From Acetatifactor muris (GTDB lineage: Bacteria; Bacillota; Clostridia; Lachnospirales; Lachnospiraceae): DNA of 64,000 nucleotides. This document shows positions 2,747-10,886 of the stretch, in pieces. How positions within the stretch are numbered: the stretch's first letter is position 1; each line of letters begins with the position of its first letter. A model generated the notes under the pieces. It was given only the letters and a program-made list of their open reading frames with translations, did no database searches and was not told the DNA's origin. The stretch covers positions 1 through 64,000 of the forward strand of contig JAMPHD010000009.1 of assembly GCA_023663635.1 (NCBI GenBank), given 5' to 3'. The position numbers were made by a program, and so were the translations under genes.

Positions 2747-2780
2747 AACAATTCCTCCTGTTTTGTCTTTAGTATCACAT

Positions 2781-2809
2781 ATTATAGAATTTTCGGCCTG
2801 TGGTGTCAA
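2781..2809 (-). promoter_or_regulatory. Consensus sigma-A promoter for the GRAM-like gene
   Basis: On the minus strand TTGACA (2804-2809) and TATAAT (2781-2786) match consensus fully with a 17-nt spacer. Strong constitutive expression is likely. Confidence 0.85.
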
Positions 2810-2835
2810 GTGCCGGCGGAAAGCCGGAATCGCTC

Positions 2836-2864
2836 TTGTAGAGTCCGACATTTTTTGATAAAAT
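2836..2864 (+). promoter_or_regulatory. Toxin promoter, copy 2
   Basis: TTGTAG (2836-2841), 17-nt spacer, TAAAAT (2859-2864), as in copies 1 and 3. Confidence 0.7.
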
Positions 2865-2966
2865 ACTTTTATGGGGTACTGCCATAACGGGATAGGCGGT
2901 CAGTCCTTCTTCACAGAGGGACTATCCCTCTGACTACGGGTAAAACCGGGAAAGGAGGGATTGCTT

Positions 2967-3059
2967 ATGAGTGACTATGAACTGCTGACGGTTGTTCTGA
3001 TGATTCTTGGAATCATTGTGTCAATTCTGATAGCGTACATAAACCACACAAAAAAGTGA
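2967..3059 (+). CDS. Putative holin-like type I toxin, copy 2
   Basis: The 30-residue peptide is identical in sequence to that of copy 1: acidic start, one membrane span and a KK end. It has the same Shine-Dalgarno AAAGGAGGG. The stop codon is TGA instead of TAA, within the left arm of the shared terminator. Sense and antisense promoters are both intact, so this copy appears functional. Confidence 0.75.
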   Translation: MSDYELLTVVLMILGIIVSILIAYINHTKK

Positions 3060-3140
3060 CCGCCCCAGCCAAAGGTAAGGTCACTTCTTTGTAAGTAATT
3101 TTATCGGGGCTGACCGTCTATCGGCAGTATTCCCTTTTGT
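3050..3140 (-). ncRNA. Predicted antisense antitoxin RNA, copy 2
   Basis: The minus-strand promoter TTGACA (3170-3175), 17 nt, TACAAT (3147-3152) would start an RNA near 3140 ending at the shared terminator around 3050-3090 (stem AAGTGACC 3054-3061 with GGTCACTT 3079-3086). The terminator loop differs from copy 1, which could make the antitoxins copy-specific. Confidence 0.7.
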
Positions 3141-3293
3141 GCTTTTATTGTAGCAGATTTTCCTGCTCCTGTCAAACGCTGCGAAGTGTTTCGCTGAAAT
3201 CATTCTATACCGGATTCCGCGCGAAGGCAAGAAGTTTTTGTGGCATTGCAGAAGATTTTTTTCGTCATTTTTCACAAATTTGTCCCAAACCCC

Positions 3294-3318
3294 TTGACAA
3301 TATATATATATATATAAT
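3294..3318 (+). promoter_or_regulatory. Promoter with (TA)8 tract between -35 and -10
   Basis: TTGACA at 3294-3299 is followed by A and eight TA units running into TATAAT at 3313-3318. The spacer is only 13 nt as written. Two more TA units would make it 17. A dinucleotide tract at this exact place is the classic layout for slipped-strand promoter phase variation. It drives the lipoprotein gene at 3372. Confidence 0.65.
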
Positions 3319-3371
3319 GGGCTTTCGTATGGAGTACTTACCCAAAATAGCGAAAGAAAGGAACATCAAAA

Positions 3372-4409
3372 ATGAAGAAGAAAATTTTAGCCGCGTTTGT
3401 TTGCGCGGCAACGGTACTCAGCCTTGCGGGGTGCGCAGACAACAAAAATGACCGCCCGATCGAAAGCGCAGCGAGCGTGAACACAAGCACCTCCCCTGCC
3501 CCGTCAACGCCGGAAACCGGCACAAGCAAGCCGGAAGTCTCATCGACAGACGCGGCAGACAGCACAAGCACGCCCGAGGTGAATTTGGCTGATTGGGATT
3601 ACAGAACATATAAAACTGATAGCGGCGAAAACTCGCTCCGAATCGCCAGTTACAAGGGAACGGACGAAAAAGTCGAGATTCCCGCAGAGATAAACGGTGT
3701 AGAGGTAACGCTGATATCGGGCGGCGCATTTCATAGCAACATAGATATCACAAGCGTGACCATTCCCGCAACCATTGTTGAAATTGACGAAGGGGCTTTT
3801 TCCGGTTGCCTGAATCTCAGTGAGATAATATTCGAGGGCAGCGCACCGATTTTGAAGGATGGTTCCAAGAATCCGCTTAATGCTTTTAAAGGAACGCCGT
3901 GGTTAGAGGCAAAGCAAGCGGAAAACCCCGACTTTTTCATCATTGGAGATGTTTTGTATAAGGGACTGGAGTGCGAGGGCGACATAACGATACCCGATGG
4001 CATGAAAAAAATTGCCGATTTTGCATTTTACCAAAATGCCAAGGTTACAGGCGCAACCATCCCCGACAGTGTGACAGAACTGGGCGAAATGGCATTCGAC
4101 TATAATAAGATAGAGTTGATATATAAAGGCACTGCTTACAAAGGGCGTAGCGATTACGAGACATTGCGTGAAACCATAGCGCAGAACGCGATTACCGCCG
4201 AATTCGGCAACGAGGATTGCATAATCACCGACAATGTACTTATGAAGGTAAATCCCAATGTGACAAAGCTTGAACTCCCCGACACCGTTACAGGCATTGA
4301 CGAAAAGGCGTTTGACGGCTGCAGTCACAGCATCGTCATCTCATTCAATGGCAAAAACTACAACTACGCGAGCATCGAAAAGCTCAAAGCCGACATGAGC
4401 GCAGAGTAA
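3372..4409 (+). CDS. BspA-type leucine-rich repeat lipoprotein
   Basis: A 345-residue secreted protein. A signal peptide ends in the lipobox LAGC (Cys at residue 21), then a Ser/Thr/Pro-rich linker to about residue 70, then LRR_5 (BspA/TpLRR) repeats with motifs such as ITSVTIPATIVEIDEGAFSG, VTGATIPDSVTELGEMAF and LELPDTVTGIDEKAF. Such proteins are anchored to the outer face of the membrane and bind host or bacterial surface ligands in some species. The ligand here is unknown. ATG at 3372 has AAAGGAACATCAAAA before it. It sits between toxin repeat copy 2 and the relic copy, and its promoter carries the variable TA tract. Confidence 0.85.
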   Translation: MKKKILAAFVCAATVLSLAGCADNKNDRPIESAASVNTSTSPAPSTPETGTSKPEVSSTDAADSTSTPEVNLADWDYRTYKTDSGENSLRIASYKGTDEKVEIPAEINGVEVTLISGGAFHSNIDITSVTIPATIVEIDEGAFSGCLNLSEIIFEGSAPILKDGSKNPLNAFKGTPWLEAKQAENPDFFIIGDVLYKGLECEGDITIPDGMKKIADFAFYQNAKVTGATIPDSVTELGEMAFDYNKIELIYKGTAYKGRSDYETLRETIAQNAITAEFGNEDCIITDNVLMKVNPNVTKLELPDTVTGIDEKAFDGCSHSIVISFNGKNYNYASIEKLKADMSAE

Positions 4410-4429: not shown

Positions 4430-4575
4430 TACATAAACCACACGAAAAAGTAATCGCCCAGCCAAAGGATGCGGTTACTTTTTTGTAACTAACTTTCGGA
4501 ACTGACCGTCTATCGGCAGTATCATTCTATACCGGATTCAGCGCAAGGCAAGAAATTTTTGTGGTATTGCGGAGA
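4430..4575 (+). repeat. Relic (copy 4) of the toxin-antitoxin repeat
   Basis: Only the last codons of the toxin (ACATAAACCACACGAAAAAG, stop), the bidirectional terminator (arm GCGGTTACTTTTTT) and the antisense leader (CTGACCGTCTATCGGCAGTAT) remain. The toxin promoter, leader and most of its gene are gone, and the segment holding the antisense -35/-10 has been deleted precisely between CGGCAGTAT and CATTCTATACCGG. Toxin and antitoxin promoter were thus lost together. Confidence 0.8.
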
Positions 4576-4706
4576 AAAGTATGGTATGCTTGGCAAGAGC
4601 GCAATTCATGACAATACCCGGCGGGATGTCATAGAGATTAAATTGTAAAGAGGTCACCGGAGTAATTGGCGGGCATCTCTTTGGGCAGAGGGGAGTGCGG
4701 ACTGAT

Positions 4707-10729: not shown

Positions 10730-10811
10730 CCGCCCCGTCCAAAGGTAAGGTCACTTCTTTGTAAGTATCTTTAATTTGGGCTGACCGTCTATCGGCAGTA
10801 TTCCCTTTTGT
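10720..10811 (-). ncRNA. Predicted antisense antitoxin RNA, copy 3
   Basis: Minus-strand promoter TTGACA (10841-10846), 17 nt, TACAAT (10818-10823). The RNA would end at the shared terminator whose arms are AAGTGACC and GGTCACTT. The AraC-type gene at 10887 is transcribed in the same direction and could read into this RNA. Confidence 0.7.
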
Positions 10812-10886
10812 GTTTTTATTGTAGCAGATTTCCCTGCCCCTGTCAAACACTGCGGAAGAAAGTATGCATACTTGGCAAAAGTGCAA

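Follow-up and report, generated by a model that had tools for sequence, protein, structure and literature searches.

The window (the whole 64,000-nucleotide (nt) stretch of DNA analysed here) carries, close to its start, a lipoprotein gene preceded by a promoter element with an alternating TA tract between its two hexamers. The locus comprises the following features:

3255–3293, plus strand: upstream part of the promoter module, which starts at the end of a neighbouring cassette and, by alignment, is common to the orthologous locus in genome G044
3294–3299, plus strand: −35 hexamer TTGACA, read from the sequence
3300–3316, plus strand: tract A + (TA)8, with (TA)8 itself at 3301–3316
3313–3318, plus strand: −10 hexamer TATAAT, made up of the final two TA units and the AT that follows them
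3357–3362, plus strand: probable ribosome-binding site AAAGGA (Shine-Dalgarno, by reading), 9 nt 5′ of the ATG
3372–4409, plus strand: gene for a 345-aa lipoprotein with BspA-type leucine-rich repeats (LRR_5), assigned by Pfam match, with orthologues in G044 and G075

Promoter and target gene

The sequence at 3290–3320 reads CCCCTTGACA A (TA)8 ATGG, and the spacer occupies 3300–3312. The first-pass annotation had placed TTGACA and TATAAT 13 nt apart, separated by A plus TA units, and had reasoned that two more units would bring the spacer to 17 nt; the sequence and the arithmetic agree exactly. For n TA units the spacer is 2n − 3 nt, and whole units step it through 13, 15 and 17 nt, with n = 10 giving 17, inside the 16–18 nt range. 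A simple sequence repeat thus lies between an intact −35 and −10, as in phase-variable promoters of the hif type. No TTGACA faces the tract from the opposite side within 3301–3330, as a hif-like bidirectional promoter would require. Downstream, the predicted transcription start (approximately 3325), AAAGGA and the ATG at 3372 follow in the normal order. On the plus strand of 2800–3800 there is no other sigma-A-like promoter scoring at least 9/12 with 16–18 nt spacing.

A whole-genome scan shows that 3301–3316 is the sole tract of at least seven TA units in the 2.99-Mb genome, for which a first-order Markov model with the window's composition expects 0.003; shuffles of the window produced none.

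The product of the 3372–4409 gene has a signal peptide in which a LAGC lipobox can be read directly and, like BspA-type LRR_5 surface proteins, exceeds the gathering score of the family (PF13306; E = 1.2e-21, 77.4 bits against 27.7). The earlier identification of the target as a BspA-like lipoprotein therefore holds, and the protein is presumably exposed at the cell surface. Weaker LRR_5-like matches occur elsewhere in the same genome, all of them, unlike the gene at 3372–4409, without a tract of at least seven TA units, so the tract is not general to BspA-like genes.

A repeated cassette lies at 1860–2316, 2821–3255 and 4430–4596, and also near 10750–10854. It contains a 30-aa hydrophobic open reading frame (ORF) (MSDYELLTVVLMILGIIVSILIAYINHTKK, 2967–3059) followed by a hairpin, together with a converging minus-strand promoter (3175–3147), and this layout resembles that of a type I toxin-antitoxin unit. 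The small-ORF cassette has no significant Pfam match, and related copies are present in many genomes of the genus. We considered the TA tract as a part of the cassette and rejected this: repeat D1 stops short of the tract, at 3255, and other copies of the cassette exist, yet the genome has no further tract of at least seven TA units. An Rfam search returned nothing above threshold.

Orthologues and locus context

Only 2 of 138 genomes of the window's genus, G044 and G075, hold an orthologue of the lipoprotein gene, and a peptide-pattern search of a bacterial and archaeal genome collection returned contigs matching theirs in length; both orthologues are about 91–93% identical to the window gene at the DNA level. 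In G044 the promoter block is kept from window position 3255 onwards, with nine TA units and a spacer of 15 nt. The flanks of the −35 and −10 (TTGACAA...ATGGG) are conserved between this genome and the window around nine and eight units, respectively, a single such pair and a comparison between species, approximately 9% apart at the gene, from collections with one genome per species. An LRR_5 lipoprotein of genome G004, which might have given a second tract-length comparison, has no relative in the genus at E ≤ 1e-25. In G075 the region 5′ of the gene has been replaced, and TTGTAA-16-TACAAT stands there instead, without a TA tract.

The surroundings also differ, with small-ORF repeat cassettes adjoining the gene in the window and toxin genes in G044 (L015:694–990 and 2752–3705), where a ParE-like toxin gene lies upstream and an AbiEii toxin gene downstream of the lipoprotein gene. 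These differing surroundings suggest that the lipoprotein gene is an accessory unit that moves. No relative of the lipoprotein was found in viral contigs, and TTGACAW(TA)≥8 occurs in just 5 of 2.9 million of them, which argues against a common phage-borne cassette.

Recurrence across Clostridia

The arrangement recurs well beyond this locus. Surveys of Lachnospiraceae and of other Clostridia together yield approximately 25 sites in which TTGACA adjoins at least six TA units, against 2 matches to a reversed-pattern control. TTGACA-N0-4-(TA)6 matches 14 sites in 12 of 397 Lachnospiraceae genomes (reversed pattern, 1 match), and TTGACAW(TA)6 matches 12 sites in 9 of 393 Clostridia genomes (control, 0). 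One further site, L143, was added from five genomes of the genus g485, of which G763 also gave one control match, and another, L150, from a 47-genome search of the order.

Within the window's own genus, ten genomes have tracts of at least seven TA units. Promoters account for four of these tracts and long open frames for another five, with L051 unassigned. The four promoter tracts represent three independent loci, all with lipoproteins downstream, two of them LRR_5. The tracts in long open frames, (TA)7–10 at around position 1500 of L050, L052, L055, L056 and L057 in other genomes of the genus, are possible frame-shift switches. At L070:1500–1540 the perfectly palindromic sequence CTTGACAT(TA)9ATGTCAAG makes two promoters face each other across a single shared tract, as at hif; the other side of the palindrome lacks a divergent gene. 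At L065:1500–1590 a TA-spacer promoter lies directly 5′ of a TnpB-like gene, identified by eye, where an insertion has perhaps taken over a switchable promoter.

The surveyed tracts comprise 6–11 TA units and give spacers of 9–19 nt. Among sites ending in TATAAT, spacers of 9, 11, 13, 15, 17 and 19 nt occur 2, 3, 6, 6, 2 and 3 times, respectively. Ten units, with a spacer of 17 nt, are found only in two paralogous copies in G142 (L073 and L081, both n = 10), which make up one of the two 17-nt entries and come from a genus with one genome; L143 attains 17 nt with nine units and a 3-nt lead. Ordinary promoters of the control set mostly have a spacer of 17 nt, in a search confined to 16–18 nt.

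Whole TA units can reach a spacer of exactly 17 nt only from an odd lead between TTGACA and the tract, and an odd lead is therefore the 17-compatible register. At sites whose lead length the search left free (0–4), 21 of 23 leads are odd (P = 4e-7 against an expectation of 40% (2/5); P = 3e-5 against 50%), as whole-unit slippage from a 17-nt promoter predicts. The two even-lead sites, L066 and L150, have no called gene downstream.

The genes behind these promoters mostly encode exported proteins. Of 24 independent genes with a TA promoter, 17 have an exported product, compared with 96 of 835 background ORFs (Fisher P = 5e-11) and 5 of 46 genes behind ordinary promoters (P = 6e-7), with accessory-gene status left uncontrolled in both comparisons. 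Both the background ORFs and the ordinary promoters were taken from the window and from 40 arbitrary 20-kb stretches, mostly of the same genomes. ORF choice and export call followed one automatic rule with a crude, unbenchmarked hydropathy classifier, whose calls, inspected by eye, were wrong for at least L075 (a false positive) and L073 (a false negative). The products include LRR_5 lipoproteins, a GA-module protein and C39-like peptidases.

A candidate length-dependent switch and its alternatives

We propose, with a probability of about two in three, that the LRR_5 lipoprotein gene has a sigma-A promoter with (TA)8 as part of its spacer, and that changes in tract length by slippage switch the gene. 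Slipped-strand mispairing during replication would add or remove whole TA units, shifting the spacer in 2-nt steps (11, 13, 15, 17 and 19), and RNA polymerase would make good contact with both hexamers only near 17 nt (n = 10, perhaps 9 or 11). The tract in this assembly, with n = 8 and a 13-nt spacer, would then be an off or low state, n = 9 a weak one and n = 10 the on state; general sigma-70 knowledge underlies this ordering of the 13-nt and 17-nt spacers. Cells of one population would differ in tract length and expression level, and variable surface display would presumably benefit them. The spacer-switch idea, already raised in the first-pass annotation, gains comparative support from the nine-unit orthologue, the recurrence, the register and the exported targets; it does not extend to the other LRR_5 loci of the genome or to G075, where the tract is absent.

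The most serious competitor, which we nevertheless consider unlikely, is a static or decaying promoter, whose AT-rich spacer drifted over evolutionary time and left the gene weak or off in this lineage, with no functional switching in populations. The differences in n are seen only between species, one orthologue (G075) has replaced its promoter, and many tracts give spacers of 9–13 nt, beyond the usual range; the concentration of sites at 13–15 nt could likewise signify decay. Drift of this kind does not readily account for recurrence in many families, where exported genes and a single register are strongly favoured. Decay is also unlikely to preserve a perfect TTGACA and TATAAT, but here the search pattern itself demanded TTGACA.

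Improbable, in our judgement, is a tract that serves as a binding site, for example for a silencer that reads TpA steps or for another AT-specific regulator, its length being incidental. Xenogeneic silencers in other phyla do target TpA-rich DNA, and the downstream genes are accessory and exported. However, tracts of 6–11 units abut TTGACA in the same register, and no conserved dyad is seen beyond the tract, the perfect palindrome at L070 being the exception. Transcription of the lipoprotein gene from another start, with the TA element resembling a promoter only by chance, is very improbable. In its favour, a 13-nt spacer should, by general sigma-70 knowledge, make a very poor promoter; against it, the plus strand at 2800–3800 offers no other candidate of at least 9/12, the element is preserved in G044 and its chance expectation is tiny.

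Returning to the switch reading, we lean slightly towards its extension to a whole class, in which TTGACA-W-(TA)n-TATAAT would mark contingency loci dispersed across Clostridia, with TA slippage switching exported proteins (lipoproteins, LRR_5, GA-module and C39-like). Known phase variation in gut Firmicutes operates mostly through invertible DNA. A switch that resides in a spacer repeat can be read straight from sequence reads, so existing metagenomes could show whether commensal Clostridia vary their surface proteins by this route, and a simple search for TTGACA-W-(TA)n-AT picks out candidates one genome at a time.

Comparison with known systems

The kind of switch proposed here is already known and apparently undescribed in Clostridia: a literature search of open-licence papers found no repeat-mediated phase variation described for Lachnospiraceae or Clostridia. 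In the Neisseria meningitidis porA promoter, a poly-G spacer sets the transcription level (PMC3899988). It shares with our promoter a simple repeat between −10 and −35, whereas its mononucleotide tract changes in 1-nt steps and the tract here is dinucleotide TA.

The closest parallel is the Haemophilus influenzae hifA/hifB fimbrial promoter, in which (TA)9–11 alters the −10/−35 spacing (van Ham et al. 1993, according to PMC2651432 and PMC3899988). Both have a TA repeat between −35 and −10, whole-unit changes that alter the spacer, and a surface target. The Haemophilus element is a bidirectional pilus promoter, whereas here a single promoter serves one lipoprotein gene in a different phylum, in an odd register (13/15/17) unlike that of hifA/hifB. 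Phase variation is documented for hifA/hifB and proposed for our locus. Because the same arrangement recurs 5′ of exported proteins across Clostridia, the lipoprotein promoter is probably an on/off switch like that of the Haemophilus pilus.
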